Positions 6,573 to 26,732 of a DNA stretch of 26,732 nucleotides are shown piece by piece (within the stretch, counting starts at the first letter, position 1; the number at the start of each line of letters is the position of its first letter). The notes under the pieces were generated by a model. That model did no database searches. It was not told where the DNA came from and was given only the letters and a program-made list of their open reading frames with translations. The translations under genes and the position numbers were made by a program. Source of the DNA: a virus; IMG/VR virus record IMGVR_UViG_3300020416_000058, positions 1 to 26,732 of that record. One strand, given 5' to 3'.

Positions 6573-6602
6573 ATGAAAAAGGGACCCCTATCAAATCCAT
6601 GA
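6573..6602 (+). CDS. Possible 9-codon leader ORF coupled to the next gene
   Basis: ATG at 6573 opens a nine-codon frame (MKKGPLSNP) whose TGA (6600-6602) overlaps the ATG of the XF1762-type gene at 6599 as ATGA. The downstream gene has no clear ribosome-binding site of its own, so re-initiation after this mini-ORF could explain its translation. A plus-strand TATAAT at 6558-6563 lies only 9 nt upstream, so this may instead be chance. Confidence 0.25.
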   Translation: MKKGPLSNP

Positions 6603-7060
6603 AATTACAAGTAATACCTATATCTTTAAGGGAAGCAAACGAATTTGTTATTAACTTTCATAGACACTCTAAAAAGACTAGGGGTCACAAATATTCAATT
6701 GGGGCTTCAGATGGAGAAAATTTAGTAGGAGTTGCTATAGTAGGCAGACCAGTAGCCAGAAAATTAGATGATGGATTTACTGCTGAAGTATTAAGAGTAT
6801 GTGTAAAAGATGATTCTCCTAAAAATACTTGTTCTTTTTTGTACGGTAGAAGCTGGCGCATTTGGCAACAAATGGGTGGTAAAAGAATGATTACTTATAC
6901 TTTGCAAAAAGAATCTGGATCTTCTTTACGAGCAGTTGATTGGAAGATTGTAGGTGAAACTAAAGTTTGGAAAGAAGGAACTGGTTGGGCAACTAGACCA
7001 GGTAGAGAGTGGCAACCTATATACGGACAACAAAAGTTTAGATGGGAAGTACTTAAATGA
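6599..7060 (+). CDS. XF1762-family protein (GNAT-like fold), 153 aa
   Basis: The sequence shows the series I associate with XF1762-type phage and prophage proteins: LREANEFVINFHRH, then VGVAIVGRPVARKLDDG, EVLRVCV, CSFLYGRSWR, MITYTLQKESGSSLRAVDWK. The layout resembles a GNAT N-acyltransferase, with the V-A-I-V-GRP strand as the core and a region (about 75-110) where acetyl-CoA would lie. The substrate is unknown. It is 153 aa, complete. It precedes terL and overlaps it by ATGA, so both are probably transcribed together. Family call from memory; enzymatic activity unproven. Confidence 0.8.
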   Translation: MKLQVIPISLREANEFVINFHRHSKKTRGHKYSIGASDGENLVGVAIVGRPVARKLDDGFTAEVLRVCVKDDSPKNTCSFLYGRSWRIWQQMGGKRMITYTLQKESGSSLRAVDWKIVGETKVWKEGTGWATRPGREWQPIYGQQKFRWEVLK

Positions 7061-12848: not shown

Positions 12849-13433
12849 ATGAGAAGTCTTTCTTTTTTGCTTCCTGAAGTATTGCCAGAACAGATTATTG
12901 AAGATATAAAAACTATGGCATTAAAATTTCCAGAGGAGATTGGAGTCGTAGGTGGAAAAATAGGTGAAAGTACTAAACAAGAAAAAGATATTAGAAGATC
13001 TCAAATTCGTTGGATAGACCCACGTACAGAAGATACAGCTAAATTAACCAATCTTTGCACAAATTTATTTGTTGATATTAATAGAGAACATTTTGGGTTA
13101 GATATTGAAAGAATATTTAATATTCAATATACAGAATACTTAGCAGCTAACAGAGGTTTTTATCATAAACATATAGATAGTCTTGTAGGCAGAGGAGAAA
13201 TGTATGATAGAAAACTTAGTATGACTATACAGTTATCTGATTCAGATGAATATGAAGGAGGTGATTTTGAATTCGATAATGATATTTTACCAGACTCTTT
13301 TGATAAAAATATTATAAGAGAAAAAGGCAGAGTTTTAATTTTTCCTTCTTTTTTACCACATAAGGTAAATCCTGTTACTAAAGGAATTAGGAAAAGTTTA
13401 GTTACTTGGATTGAAGGGCCAGCTTGGAGATAA
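12849..13433 (+). CDS. 2OG-Fe(II) oxygenase, prolyl-4-hydroxylase/PKHD-like (194 aa)
   Basis: The cupin-like double-stranded beta-helix fold is indicated by the iron triad H108-x-D110 (in FYHKHIDS) and H171 (FLPHKV), and by R181 (GIRKSLVTW) as the likely 2-oxoglutarate-binding residue. MTIQLSDSDEYEGGDFEF is the usual strand before the second half. These enzymes use oxygen and 2-oxoglutarate to hydroxylate a protein residue or small molecule; in phages the substrate is usually unknown. It sits among Lys-rich proteins, which makes protein lysine or proline hydroxylation a possible job. There is no clear ribosome-binding site. Complete. Confidence 0.92.
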   Translation: MRSLSFLLPEVLPEQIIEDIKTMALKFPEEIGVVGGKIGESTKQEKDIRRSQIRWIDPRTEDTAKLTNLCTNLFVDINREHFGLDIERIFNIQYTEYLAANRGFYHKHIDSLVGRGEMYDRKLSMTIQLSDSDEYEGGDFEFDNDILPDSFDKNIIREKGRVLIFPSFLPHKVNPVTKGIRKSLVTWIEGPAWR

Positions 13434-14041: not shown

Positions 14042-14518
14042 ATGACCGAACTAGCAGTTCCAAACCACATCGCAGAAGAAAGAAAAAAGGAAAGAGAAGA
14101 AGCAGCAAGATCAGATGTAGATAAAGCTTATGTCAAAACTGAAGACAGAGTTTTAGATCCTACATTGCTAGATAAATCATTACTTGAAAGAATGCCTAAT
14201 CCCACTGGCTGGCGTATATTGGTTTTACCTTACAAAGGTAAAGGCGTAACCGAAGGTGGCATACACTTAACCACATCTACTTTAGATCGAGAATCTTTAG
14301 CTACAGTAGTTGCCTATGTTTTAAAAGTAGGTCCTACCGCTTATAAAGATAAAGATAAATTTGAAAGTCAGACTTGGTGCAGAGAAAAAGATTGGGTATT
14401 GATTGGCAGATATGCGGGAGCTCGCTTTCGTTTGGAAGACAATCACGAGGTAAGAATTATTAATGATGACGAGGTAATCGGCACCATTAATGATCCCGAT
14501 GATATTAAAACTTTATAG
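14042..14518 (+). CDS. GroES-like co-chaperonin (158 aa)
   Basis: The Cpn10 core is visible: NPTGWRILVLPYKGKG (about residues 53-68), the mobile-loop GGIHLTTSTLDRES (72-85, including the GGI-hydrophobic motif that contacts GroEL), ATVVAYVLKVGPTAY (87-101), EKDWVLIGRYAGARF (115-129) and DDEVIGTI (142-149). A 50-residue charged N-terminal extension is extra compared with about 95-aa GroES. In T4 and others (gp31), a phage co-chaperonin lets host GroEL fold the capsid protein. Its place just before the scaffold and capsid supports this. Starts with a GAGG site. Confidence 0.88.
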   Translation: MTELAVPNHIAEERKKEREEAARSDVDKAYVKTEDRVLDPTLLDKSLLERMPNPTGWRILVLPYKGKGVTEGGIHLTTSTLDRESLATVVAYVLKVGPTAYKDKDKFESQTWCREKDWVLIGRYAGARFRLEDNHEVRIINDDEVIGTINDPDDIKTL

Positions 14519-18507: not shown

Positions 18508-18729
18508 ATGGTTTATAAAAGAACTAAAGGCTATGGCAAAGGTGGCATGGCTAAAAAAACTAAAGGCTACCGTGGTGGCGGCATGGCTAAAAAAACTAAA
18601 GGTTATCGTGGCGGTGGTGCAATGAAAAAAACCAAAGGCTACAGAGCTGGAGGAAAAGCCACCAAAGGGTATAGCAAAGGCGGTAAAGCAACTAAAGGTT
18701 ACAGAAGAGGCGGCGCTGCTAAAAAATAA
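18508..18729 (+). CDS. Gly/Tyr/Lys tandem-repeat protein (73 aa)
   Basis: Nearly the whole protein is repeats: a 13-aa opening unit, three 12-aa units of the type MAKKTKGYRGGG, then two 10-aa units KATKGYxxGG and a final AAKK. It is strongly basic with Tyr spaced every 10-12 residues. Similar KGY..GG repeat proteins occur in marine phages, with unknown role; I would guess a flexible DNA- or RNA-binding or matrix-like virion protein. GAGGAG site 8 nt before the ATG. Low-complexity sequence makes homology searching difficult. Confidence 0.75.
   Translation: MVYKRTKGYGKGGMAKKTKGYRGGGMAKKTKGYRGGGAMKKTKGYRAGGKATKGYSKGGKATKGYRRGGAAKK
18547..18714 (+). repeat. Coding tandem repeats (three 36-nt and two 30-nt units)
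   Basis: Units span 18547-18582, 18583-18618, 18619-18654 (36 nt each), then 18655-18684 and 18685-18714 (30 nt each). They differ by synonymous and a few coding changes, which suggests selection on the protein repeat rather than very recent duplication. Copy number may vary between related phages. Confidence 0.8.
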
Positions 18730-23150: not shown

Positions 23151-24356
23151 ATGGCTCTTGTCCTAAACGATAGGGTAAAAGAAACTACCACTTCTACTGG
23201 CACAGGCACCATAAATTTAGCAGGTGCCGAAACTGGTTTTGAAACTTTTGTAGCAGGTGTTGGAAACTCTAATACTTGTTACTACTGTATTGCTCACCAA
23301 TCGGCAAATGAATTTGAAGTTGGTTTAGGCACAATTACTGACGCCACTCCTGATACATTGGCAAGAACTACGATCATTAGTAGTTCTAACTCTGACTCTG
23401 CTGTAGATTTTTCTGCAGGAACTAAAGATGTATTTTGTACACTACCTGCAAGTAAGACTGTATTTGAAGATGCCTCTGACAATATAGCGTTAGGTGCTGC
23501 ACCAACTGTTAGCAATGCTTCTGGAGATTTAACCTTAGATGTTGTAGGAAGTATTGTTTTAGATGCTGACAATAATGCAGAAATATCTTTTCAAGATGCT
23601 GGAACAGAAATAGGTAAAATTTTTAACAGTTCTAGTGATTTTGCTTTAGAAGCAGGAGTACAAGATAAAGATATAATTTTTAGAGGTAATGATGGTGGTA
23701 CAGGAATTACTGCCCTTACTCTTGATATGTCTGATGCAGGTAGAGCTATGTTTAATGGTTCTATTGATGTTGGTGGTACTTCGATTACGAGAACAGGAGA
23801 TTTAACTTTAGATGGATCTGGAGATATTATTTTAGACGCTGGTGGAGAGCATATAAGATTTTATGATGATGGTAATGAATGGGGTAATATTGAAAGTGGC
23901 TCTTCAAATTTTAATTTGACTGCTTCAGTACAAGATAAAGATTTTGTATTTTTAGGTAATGATGGCGGCTCAGGTATTATTGCTGCAAGGATAGATATGT
24001 CAGATGCTGGTGCATTAATTTGTAATGGTAATATCACAGCTTTTGGAAGCACCTCAGATATTAGATTAAAAGAAAATGTTGAAGTTATTCCTGATGCTCT
24101 TGATAAAGTAAAACAATTAAAAGGGATTACTTTTAATTACAAAAAAGATGGAAAGAAAAGCACAGGTTTAATAGCACAAGATTTAGAAAAAGTATTACCA
24201 GAAGCAGTTTACGAAACTTCTGATGTAGATGATGAAGATAAACACTTAGCTATTCGTTATGGCAATACAGTAGGTTTATTAGTAGAAGCTATCAAAGAAC
24301 AACAAGAACAAATAGAAACTCTTACAGCTAAAGTAAAAGAATTAGAGAATAGATAA
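23151..24356 (+). CDS. Tail fibre with C-terminal S74 intramolecular chaperone (401 aa)
   Basis: The N-terminal part (LVLNDRVKETTTSTGTGTINLAGAETGFETFVAGVG, residues 3-38) is a virion-attachment domain typical of marine phage fibres. The middle is an internal duplication: residues about 125-205 and 216-295 share GDLTLD, ...QDKD..F.GNDGG.GI and DMSDAG. The C-terminus STSDIRLKENVEVIPDALDKV (from residue 300) is the start of a peptidase S74 / endosialidase-type chaperone, which trimerises the fibre and then cuts itself off at the Ser of S-D; the final residues are a coiled coil. It acts at host recognition. Confidence 0.9.
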   Translation: MALVLNDRVKETTTSTGTGTINLAGAETGFETFVAGVGNSNTCYYCIAHQSANEFEVGLGTITDATPDTLARTTIISSSNSDSAVDFSAGTKDVFCTLPASKTVFEDASDNIALGAAPTVSNASGDLTLDVVGSIVLDADNNAEISFQDAGTEIGKIFNSSSDFALEAGVQDKDIIFRGNDGGTGITALTLDMSDAGRAMFNGSIDVGGTSITRTGDLTLDGSGDIILDAGGEHIRFYDDGNEWGNIESGSSNFNLTASVQDKDFVFLGNDGGSGIIAARIDMSDAGALICNGNITAFGSTSDIRLKENVEVIPDALDKVKQLKGITFNYKKDGKKSTGLIAQDLEKVLPEAVYETSDVDDEDKHLAIRYGNTVGLLVEAIKEQQEQIETLTAKVKELENR

Positions 24357-25099
24357 TGGCGATACCTGCAAGTGGATCAGTATCTTTTAGTCAAATACAA
24401 AGCGAATGGGGTGGTAGTAACCCCATTAGTATAAGTGAGTATTACTCAGGAAGTTTACCTAGTGGTAGCACCTCTAGTAGTGTTAGTCCTACTGTAGCAA
24501 GCCTTACCAATTCAACGTATAACCCCGGCGCAAAATATGTTCCTGCTTATACACTATATGAAAGAACAAATGGATTTAAGAGTCAGTACGCACTTAATTA
24601 TCTTTCAGGTTCAATGGGATCAGCTTCTGCAACATGGACAACTACAGTAGGCAGAGATGTATCAGGTAATGCAGGATCAATACCTTCCTCTGGAGCTATA
24701 CAGACAGATCACTTTAGAGGCACTAGTGCTGGCTCATCGGCTAATTTACTTAGTTATGGATTTGGACTTTATCAGACAAGCTCAACAAGTGCCACTGCAT
24801 TAGGAAATGCTACTTTTTTTTGTTGGATTCAAGGCCATTATGGAACGAATGGTGTTACAGGCAATAACTGGACTAATGTTCCTTTTCGTTGGATAGACTC
24901 TGCTGCTAAAAATGGAATACCTGCTACTAGATGGTATGGCTCAGATAATCAGAGTAATAATGGTGCTAGTACATCTAAAGCTTCTTGCATACATGATACT
25001 TTTCCAACTATTGGTGCTGTCACAAGATATTTATGGACTAGTAATTTTAGTTCAGCAATAACTATGTCTGGAACATGGACTTTAACTATTCAACGCTAA
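24356..25099 (+). CDS. Tail fibre / adhesin-type protein (247 aa)
   Basis: The first residues MAIPASGSVSFSQIQSEWGGSNPISISEYYSG are a block seen at the N-terminus of cyanophage and other marine fibre proteins (S.IN..FGG..PIS.S.YY-type). The rest is Ser/Thr/Asn/Gly-rich with many aromatic residues, as in receptor-binding domains, ending GTWTLTIQR. The stop of the S74 fibre overlaps its start, so they are translated together. Likely the distal receptor-binding fibre. No cleavage or chaperone domain was recognised. Confidence 0.75.
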   Translation: MAIPASGSVSFSQIQSEWGGSNPISISEYYSGSLPSGSTSSSVSPTVASLTNSTYNPGAKYVPAYTLYERTNGFKSQYALNYLSGSMGSASATWTTTVGRDVSGNAGSIPSSGAIQTDHFRGTSAGSSANLLSYGFGLYQTSSTSATALGNATFFCWIQGHYGTNGVTGNNWTNVPFRWIDSAAKNGIPATRWYGSDNQSNNGASTSKASCIHDTFPTIGAVTRYLWTSNFSSAITMSGTWTLTIQR

Positions 25100-25332
25100 T
25101 GGTTGAAAAAGCAGAGGATATTATTTATTACGAAGAAACTATAACCGATGGCACTGTTGTTTATCGTTGTGATTATAAAGGTGTTGCTATTCGATATGAA
25201 AAGTCTATGTTCGATGGAATGACAGAATTACAGATTCAACGACATTTTTTTCAACATATAAATAACGAAATAGACGAAACTGTTTATGATATAAGTAAAC
25301 ATGCTGAAGAAAATACAAGTGAGGAAATATAA
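25099..25332 (+). CDS. Hypothetical protein after the fibres (77 aa)
   Basis: The start is at 25099 (MVEKAEDIIYYEETITDG), where ATG overlaps the previous stop as TAATG; a frame start at 25075 inside the adhesin is rejected. The N-terminus has GTVVYRCDYKGVAIRYEKSMFD; the C-terminus is acidic and helical (NEIDETVYDISKHAEE). It is a small acidic protein, perhaps a fibre-assembly factor. Its own stop overlaps the next start (TAATG). No family recognised. Confidence 0.72.
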   Translation: MVEKAEDIIYYEETITDGTVVYRCDYKGVAIRYEKSMFDGMTELQIQRHFFQHINNEIDETVYDISKHAEENTSEEI

Positions 25333-26033
25333 TGACAGTCCGATATGATTTTGTTGTAGTGCCAGAAACTCTTAAAGTAATTGATGATCAATTTCAAATA
25401 GTAGTAGTTAAAGGCAATCAGGGAGATGTAGCTTCTAGAACAGAAAAATCAGAAGTAGTTGAAGTAACAAATCAAATTTTTGATACTGAAAGTTCAAACA
25501 TACTTAAAACTCCAAGTATAATTTCTCTTATAGAAGGTGGTATAGAAGTTTCTCTTAGTTGGGAAAATGATGATATTACTGAGTCTGATATACAAAGGTT
25601 AAATTTATTAACTCAATATGATTATTTAAAAAATGGTTCTTTTGAACAAACAAGTTGGGAAGAAGCTGTAGCTAATAAAAGTTATAAAGCTACTTATACT
25701 TTTGGTAATGATTACGAAACTTTGCAAGAAAAAGGTTTTTCTTGGGGATTGTATGCTAAGTATGGAGAATTAAAAGCGACACAAGACAATACTAAATTAG
25801 TTTGTTGTTTACCTAAAGTAGAAGGATATTATGGCAGTATTTTAGATATAGGAGTTGGCGAAACTAAAACAATTAATAAATCTGATAATTTAATGTACTT
25901 ATTCTTTTCACAGAATTGTTCTATTGGCGATACACAAATAAGTCAGTATGATATAAAAAAATTAAATAGTTCTTCGGTGGAGATTACAAATGAATCAGAA
26001 ACTACTGCAAGGATCATGGTATATCGGAGGTAA
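25332..26033 (+). CDS. Hypothetical protein, late-module (233 aa)
   Basis: A beta-rich protein with N-terminal MTVRYDFVVVPETLKVID and blocks such as TPSIISLIEGGIEVSLSW and YLKNGSFEQTSWEEAVANKSY; C-terminus ETTARIMVYRR. Composition (Val, Ile, Thr, Ser, Asn) fits an extracellular or virion protein, but I do not recognise a family. GAGG site with TAATG overlap to the previous gene. Its place after the fibre genes suggests tail-fibre assembly or host binding; this is inference only. Confidence 0.72.
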   Translation: MTVRYDFVVVPETLKVIDDQFQIVVVKGNQGDVASRTEKSEVVEVTNQIFDTESSNILKTPSIISLIEGGIEVSLSWENDDITESDIQRLNLLTQYDYLKNGSFEQTSWEEAVANKSYKATYTFGNDYETLQEKGFSWGLYAKYGELKATQDNTKLVCCLPKVEGYYGSILDIGVGETKTINKSDNLMYLFFSQNCSIGDTQISQYDIKKLNSSSVEITNESETTARIMVYRR

Positions 26034-26038
26034 TAAAT

Positions 26039-26732
26039 ATGGCATGGAATTTAAAGAAAATATATAAATACAGCAAAGATGTATTTGAGAATAATCATAA
26101 TATACAAAAACTTGAAGATGATTTTGGTAATGCAAGATTAGATGCCTATCAAGGTTTAATTAGACAAATGGCTATTCCTTTTGGTTTTGGAGCAGTAATT
26201 ACACATCTTAAAAAAGAAAAAAGACCTATTTTATTTGGTGGAAGTTGGAATGATCCAACTTATGTAAAAGAAAAAGTATTACCAAAAATGTCAGATAGAG
26301 AATGGCTGCAATCTTTGCCTCCTAATACTGTAGGAGCTCACTTAGGTAATTTACTGAAAAATTTTACCCTAGAAGAACTTTATGATAAAAGATTTCTTGT
26401 CGGAGAAAATACTAATAATCTTGCAGGAAGAAAAGGTAGAAAACTCTGGGTTAATATATCAAGTCATATGTTTTTAACACATGATATATGGCACGTTTTA
26501 TTTAGATACGATACTACACTTTTTGGAGAAGGATTAATTCAACAAATTACTTTTAGAGCTATAGGTGTAGTGCCTGTTGCTTATATAGCTTTCGTTGTGG
26601 CTTGTAAAGTTGCTTGGCGTACCAAATCTTTTATGCCTTTTAAAGTTTTAAGAGAGGCAGATAAACTAGCAAAAAGAGCAAATAAAAAATTATTATCAGC
26701 TAATAGTCCTTTATATTTTCTTGAACAAGATA
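26039..26732 (+). CDS. coq4: COQ4-family ubiquinone-biosynthesis protein, C-terminus cut by window end
   Basis: The ATG at 26039 follows a strong GGAGGTAAT site. The 231 visible residues have the COQ4 marks: LPPNTVGAHLGNLL (about 93-106), FTLEELYD (109-116) and the metal-site motif THDIWHVLFRYDTTLFGE, giving HDxxH then 11 residues then E (H148, D149, H152, E164). This HDxxHx11E is diagnostic of COQ4. COQ4 acts in ubiquinone biosynthesis, reported to be needed for oxidative decarboxylation at ring C1 and to organise the membrane complex. A hydrophobic segment (about 173-190) may help membrane contact. Unexpected for a phage; it would be an auxiliary metabolic gene. The 3' end lies beyond 26732, so completeness is unknown. 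Confidence 0.85.
   Translation, partial: MAWNLKKIYKYSKDVFENNHNIQKLEDDFGNARLDAYQGLIRQMAIPFGFGAVITHLKKEKRPILFGGSWNDPTYVKEKVLPKMSDREWLQSLPPNTVGAHLGNLLKNFTLEELYDKRFLVGENTNNLAGRKGRKLWVNISSHMFLTHDIWHVLFRYDTTLFGEGLIQQITFRAIGVVPVAYIAFVVACKVAWRTKSFMPFKVLREADKLAKRANKKLLSANSPLYFLEQD

Follow-up and report, generated by a model that had tools for sequence, protein, structure and literature searches.

The DNA analysed here, referred to as the window, is an entire linear IMG/VR record of 26,732 bp. At its end lies a COQ4-like gene (COQ4L), cut off by the end of the contig and preceded by a predicted bicupin-fold protein (P1), a short protein, a tail-fibre-like gene and a tail-fibre gene. The features of this region are as follows:

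23151-24356, plus strand: tail fibre with a C-terminal Peptidase_S74 chaperone domain (Pfam)
24356-25099, plus strand: tail-fibre-like protein (AIPxSGxxS..EYY type), neighbour component 1, with no Pfam family over cut-off
25075-25332, plus strand: 85-aa protein, at position -2 in the nearest relatives (neighbour component 22, 12 loci)
25332-26033, plus strand: P1, 233-aa predicted bicupin-fold protein directly upstream of COQ4L (AlphaFold, Foldseek)
26026-26030, plus strand: ribosome-binding site GGAGG, 8 nt upstream of the COQ4L ATG and inside the end of the preceding gene
26039-26732, plus strand: COQ4L, with an ATG start; 231 codons of a gene of about 278, the contig ending before the remainder
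26480-26530, plus strand: HDxxHx11E metal motif and YDT..GE signature of COQ4L (codons 148-164, HDIWHVLFRYDTTLFGE)

The COQ4L reading frame (26039-26731, plus strand) comprises 231 codons and is stop-free to the window end. Since the window is the whole record and its sequence ends at 26732, the C-terminus cannot be read past that position. Two relatives, L002 and L003 (88% and 90% identity to the window protein), encode the complete protein of 278 aa (at 1821-2654 in L003) and show no frame break, which the first-pass annotation had named, for the sequence just past the window, as something that would count against its claim; three further relatives, L007-L009, share 57% identity with window COQ4L. 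The metal motif is formed by H148, D149, H152 and E164, with a spacing of exactly 11 between H152 and E164, and both LPPNTVGAHLGNLL and FTLEELYD are found in the window protein, all as first described. The ribosome-binding site, the GGAGG listed above, is strong, as had been stated. Placement of the gene in a phage late or tail module also stands; its position directly after tail-fibre genes does not, as two genes (233 aa and 85 aa) intervene.

COQ4 helps cells to make the respiratory molecule coenzyme Q. In a search against Pfam, the window fragment scored 24.1 bits and complete relatives 28.6-29.2 bits for Coq4 (PF05019), so that the HMM comparison proposed at the outset was significant (curated cut-off, 22.9 bits); the single-sequence alignment spans only profile positions 125-218 of 221. 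Adeno_E1B_19K and other Pfam side matches were below their own cut-offs or isolated, and were set aside. Among the matches listed, 68 of 69 phage relatives matched Coq4 at E <= 0.01 (best E, 8e-18). A profile of these 69 relatives (alignment A4) was compared with the PDB and matched only two chains, 3MSQ (E 6.6e-16, residues 82-237) and 6E12 (E 8.7e-12, residues 56-236), which are COQ4 homologues from Nostoc (Npun02000094; Alr8543). Homology therefore extends past the half that carries the motif, with the profile aligned over residues 56-236 in the match to 6E12. An AlphaFold model based on A4 (pLDDT 85.4) was submitted to Foldseek, which returned 6E12 and 3MSQ, each with a probability of 1.00 and a TM-score of 0.69-0.72 on the target, and no other convincing match.

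Residues G99, H148, D149, H152, D158, T159, G163 and E164 are invariant throughout A4, several of them having been built into the search pattern (HDxxHx5DTx3GE) used to fetch most relatives. Because of this, five relatives that were fetched by other peptides provide an unbiased check, and they also keep the motif. Loss of the motif among relatives, which the first-pass annotation had named as something that would refute its claim, is not seen in the 69 sequences. The H, D, H and E of the motif are likewise invariant in 30 cellular COQ4 sequences compared, and within the motif H, D, H, G and E are common to phage and cellular proteins. A chance resemblance to Coq4 over 70 residues, in a helical phage protein with no relation to it, would fit the modest single-sequence scores (24-29 bits) and the coverage of only the second half of the profile, yet such an accident is exceedingly improbable in view of the family profile (E 7e-16 over residues 82-237), the invariant motif, and a fold that matches both COQ4 structures and no others. 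Because Coq4 is matched by nearly every relative, the PDB profile matches are exclusively COQ4, and the predicted fold retrieves the same two structures, membership of the window gene in the COQ4 superfamily is settled, as had been claimed.

COQ4L shares with the Coq4 family (PF05019) the HDxxHx11E motif, the GE that follows it, the conserved G99 and a helical fold. It differs in being longer (278 aa against 221 profile positions), in its phage gene context, and in having only 12-16% identity to the solved COQ4 homologues in structural alignments. A further difference lies within the signature, where positions 158-159 are DT in phage COQ4L while GR is commonest in the cellular set compared, giving RYDT where cellular COQ4 most often has GYGR. 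The YDT of the phage proteins resembles Nostoc-type and Chitinophagaceae proteins rather than the commonest cellular form, YGR.

In order to survey the spread of the gene, a DNA pattern for HDxxHx5DTx3GE was scanned across IMG/VR viral contigs, which yielded at least 119 stretches, at least 72 of them non-redundant at 95% identity. All 119 stretches listed fall in open reading frames, mostly of 200-290 aa, and BLASTP linked 113 of them in one set with the window protein and four in a second set, with two standing alone. Carriers include HTVC023P-like podoviruses and T4-like myoviruses: in 43 COQ4L contigs, the HTVC023P-like capsid family was found in seven and T4-like Gp23 in three, and four COQ4L contigs have a contractile sheath together with a T4-like terminase match. 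COQ4L is thus carried by at least two unrelated phage lineages.

The window itself is a real phage genome, with TerL, portal, capsid and tail fibre within the same 26.7 kb. Its TerL is 61% identical to that of Pelagibacter phage HTVC027P and its capsid 71% identical to that of HTVC023P (66-71% across HTVC023P and HTVC027P), so that both proteins are homologous to those of HTVC023P-type pelagiphages; HTVC023P itself has no Coq4 match. The capsids of Planktothrix and Synechococcus phages are also 60% identical to the window capsid, and relatives of this phage backbone infect other bacteria besides Pelagibacter. The backbone (TerL, capsid) is better evidence of host than the presence of COQ4, and Pelagibacter is a candidate host. 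The earlier argument that a COQ4 gene makes a cyanobacterial host less likely fails, because cyanobacteria carry COQ4-family proteins: the Coq4 search matches Synechococcus elongatus, and both solved homologues are from Nostoc. A SAR11 16S probe had no match among the 190 genomes of the class of genome G046. Coq4-family matches were present in only 17 of these 190 genomes, and genomes G101, G192, G172 and G170 have three to six such matches each.

Elsewhere in the window, a GroES-like Cpn10 gene (14042-14518) and a 2OG-Fe(II) oxygenase gene (12849-13433) are present, and HTVC023P is annotated with both kinds too. A Mom-family protein (DNA modification, PF25680) is encoded at 6599-7060, immediately before the terminase, and a 73-aa protein of GYRGGG-MAKKTK-type repeats, very rich in Gly and Lys, at 18508-18729.

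No convincing COQ4L match was found in INPHARED, PHROGs or BFVD. A tblastn search of 50,697 phage records with the window protein, a full relative and four diverse members gave no significant match, PHROGs gave one marginal match among 69 members, NCBIfam held no relevant model for these proteins, and no BFVD structure matched the COQ4L model. The literature covered, which lay outside preprints and most subscription papers, contained nothing relevant on COQ4 in phages. The statement that phage copies are not generally described is therefore borne out by these records, databases and papers. The study of HTVC023P-type pelagiphages reports multi-gene module transfer between a podovirus and a myovirus and makes no mention of Coq or quinone in its main text (PMC9599517); a match no stronger than the single-sequence one of COQ4L would not pass the 1e-10 cut-off used there for annotation. 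The only report of a phage ubiquinone gene that we found concerns ubiG, which a study of Baltic Sea phages lists among their metabolic genes (PMC9301287). Like COQ4L it is a ubiquinone-pathway-type gene in a phage, but it encodes a methyltransferase unrelated to COQ4.

Phylogeny was inferred from a quick COQ4 tree with long branches that included 40 cellular sequences, a small sample with no eukaryotic COQ4. In this tree, window COQ4L sits in a phage-only clade of 35 sequences (clade A; SH-aLRT 98) that branches apart from the cellular COQ4 sequences sampled, and a second clade holds, besides phage sequences, only four Chitinophagaceae proteins whose placement is uncertain. Three other phage sequences, from L017, L135 and L096, nest among cellular COQ4 and, by this placement, appear to be a separate acquisition from cells. 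Their cellular-type genes lie at L017:7980-8612, L135:5919-6551 and L096:1428-2099; those of L017 and L135 adjoin a glycosyltransferase 2 gene, and in L135 a radical SAM gene follows two genes on.

Cellular genome contigs were also scanned for relatives. A scan with a three-sequence alignment gave 138 pattern matches, none of them a relative, and a motif scan gave 21 matches, mostly short Chitinophagaceae proteins and one phage-like contig. In the genome scan, which revealed no close cellular relative, the phage type of COQ4L turned up in a single contig, from a Gammaproteobacteria MAG. This contig (L137; NYWC01000010.1, 61,206 bp) encodes a protein 99.6% identical to that of phage L024, and is either a prophage or phage DNA that was assigned to the MAG during binning. 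COQ4-like proteins of about 160 aa were seen in MAGs of Chitinophagaceae and other Bacteroidota (L136, L139-L141, L143-L150, L152-L154 and L156). To our knowledge, cyanobacteria do not use ubiquinone, nor do we know of ubiquinone synthesis in Chitinophagaceae or other Bacteroidota. The occurrence of COQ4-like proteins in such organisms implies that the COQ4 family has further roles. Between close COQ4L relatives, dN/dS is 0.11-0.32, which denotes purifying selection and hence a functional protein.

The gene directly upstream of COQ4L recurs with it. Among the matches listed, the P1 family is present at 81 of 119 loci, in 80 of those at position -1, and at 49 of the 72 non-redundant loci, in both main groups; a single-protein search with window P1 returned five close relatives, all of them in COQ4L-carrying contigs. 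The AlphaFold model of P1 (pLDDT 92.4) was matched by Foldseek to cupins and is bicupin-like, and it is assigned to the bicupin fold class only, because TM-scores were low. The sole invariant residues in its alignment (A5) are M1, G69, C158 and N220, so that the metal site of cupins is not seen to be conserved. Window P1 matched no Pfam or PHROG family.

The motif group of the window has 34 non-redundant loci, and at least 12 of them show a second context, an Fe-S/redox block that contains COQ4L, not every block gene being present in each locus. The order is Redoxin (peroxiredoxin), PRTase (phosphoribosyltransferase), COQ4L, NifU_N/IscU, Fe-S_biosyn/IscA-type and glutaredoxin. P1 and this block occur together in none of the 72 non-redundant loci (among the matches listed). 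Examples of the block include L099:4258-9449, L060:6830-12480, L108, L113, L072 and L078, and a glycosyltransferase is also found in it. A small transmembrane protein occupies position +1 in 22 of the 34 non-redundant loci of the same motif group, among the matches listed, and occurs in both the P1 and the Fe-S/redox contexts; it is absent from group B phages. None of the genes next to COQ4L was recognised as a further member of the ubiquinone pathway.

The frequency of P1 with COQ4L in both clades, and the fact that COQ4L adjoins tail-fibre genes in most loci, could mean that the two proteins belong to a host-recognition or entry module, in which an enzyme fold has been recruited for structure or envelope contact. 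We regard such a tail- or virion-associated role as improbable: all four metal ligands are invariant, no PHROG structural family matches, and about seven neighbourhood changes are needed on the clade-A tree, at least three of them forced by well-supported branches, with COQ4L still present where it lies apart from tail genes, in the Fe-S/redox block. COQ4L is thus retained through changes of neighbourhood. This switching of context around an invariant active site is why a purely tail-structural role was dropped as the leading view.

Work on cellular homologues bears on what the enzyme may do. Ancestral animal COQ4 carried out Zn-dependent C1 decarboxylation in vitro at the same motif, and double mutants of the metal site were inactive (PMC7615680); human COQ4 has been reported as an oxidative decarboxylase (PMC11495197), and a Nostoc COQ4 homologue binds metal at the motif, plus a lipid (PMC9774615). 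With a probability of about 0.45, COQ4L is hypothesized to be a membrane-associated metalloenzyme that acts on the host prenyl-quinone pathway during infection. It would represent a phage-specific COQ4 branch, largely helical, with a putative metal bound at HDxxHx11E, and would probably be associated with the inner membrane, where the small transmembrane protein at +1, frequent in the clade of the window, could anchor it. The substrate would most likely be a polyprenylated aromatic precursor of the host quinone, the reaction might be, for example, C1 decarboxylation of the COQ4 type, and the phage may thereby sustain or redirect the respiratory quinone pool during virion production.

The family match, the invariant ligands and the low dN/dS argue for the quinone-pathway reading, as do the Fe-S/redox block for a link to respiration and the transmembrane protein, found in both contexts, for a link to the membrane. 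Against it, the DT signature and the separation of the phage clades from the sampled cellular COQ4 make the identity of COQ4L COQ4-like and not demonstrably that of a ubiquinone COQ4; neither the partners at -1 and -2 nor the position in a tail module points to quinone synthesis; and the lack of a membrane partner in group B and of an adjacent ubiquinone gene count in the same direction, as does the occurrence of COQ4-like proteins in cyanobacteria and Chitinophagaceae.

The same signature and separate clades suit a COQ4-like metalloprotein with a job other than ubiquinone, whose ligand or substrate would be some other lipid of the host envelope, prenyl or fatty. The nearest solved structures are the Nostoc proteins, one of them with oleic acid and Mg, the DT signature is closer to Nostoc-type and Chitinophagaceae proteins than to the GYGRD that is commonest in cells, and COQ4L would then be likened to the COQ4-like proteins, still uncharacterised, that cyanobacteria and Bacteroidota possess. 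The Fe-S/redox genes around COQ4L in part of clade A, and a catalytic motif identical to that of demonstrated decarboxylases, speak against this proposal, which we hold to be possible but doubtful. A role in host takeover, in which COQ4L blocks quinone synthesis by the host, for example as a decoy that poisons a biosynthetic complex, would accord with the late position of the gene and with the scaffold role proposed for eukaryotic COQ4 in the CoQ complex (PMC11495197). For a decoy, however, there would be no need to keep the metal site unchanged in 69 sequences, and we consider this role very unlikely.

Beyond the proposed quinone-pathway role of the enzyme itself, the recurrent partners raise the tentative idea of an undescribed module common to unrelated marine phage lineages, in which a phage-specific COQ4-like enzyme and either the bicupin or the peroxiredoxin/Fe-S genes, joined in one clade by a membrane partner, might manage both the respiratory quinone and the redox state of the host in the course of infection.

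Phages are well known to carry genes bearing on photosynthesis and on carbon or nucleotide metabolism; genes that would act on the respiratory quinone pool are hardly known. A relative of COQ4, with all of its metal-binding residues, is encoded by many uncultivated marine viruses that infect bacteria. The conservation of these residues, the recurrent neighbours and the absence of the gene from the phage catalogues searched suggest an undescribed form of interference by these viruses with the respiration of their hosts. If this is true, a conserved and widespread COQ4-like gene in abundant ocean phages would place respiration among the processes that phages control. The recurrent partners of COQ4L make the question of its function testable, and the set as a whole, which comprises many COQ4-like proteins outside cells, could help to settle which roles the COQ4 fold has beyond ubiquinone synthesis.
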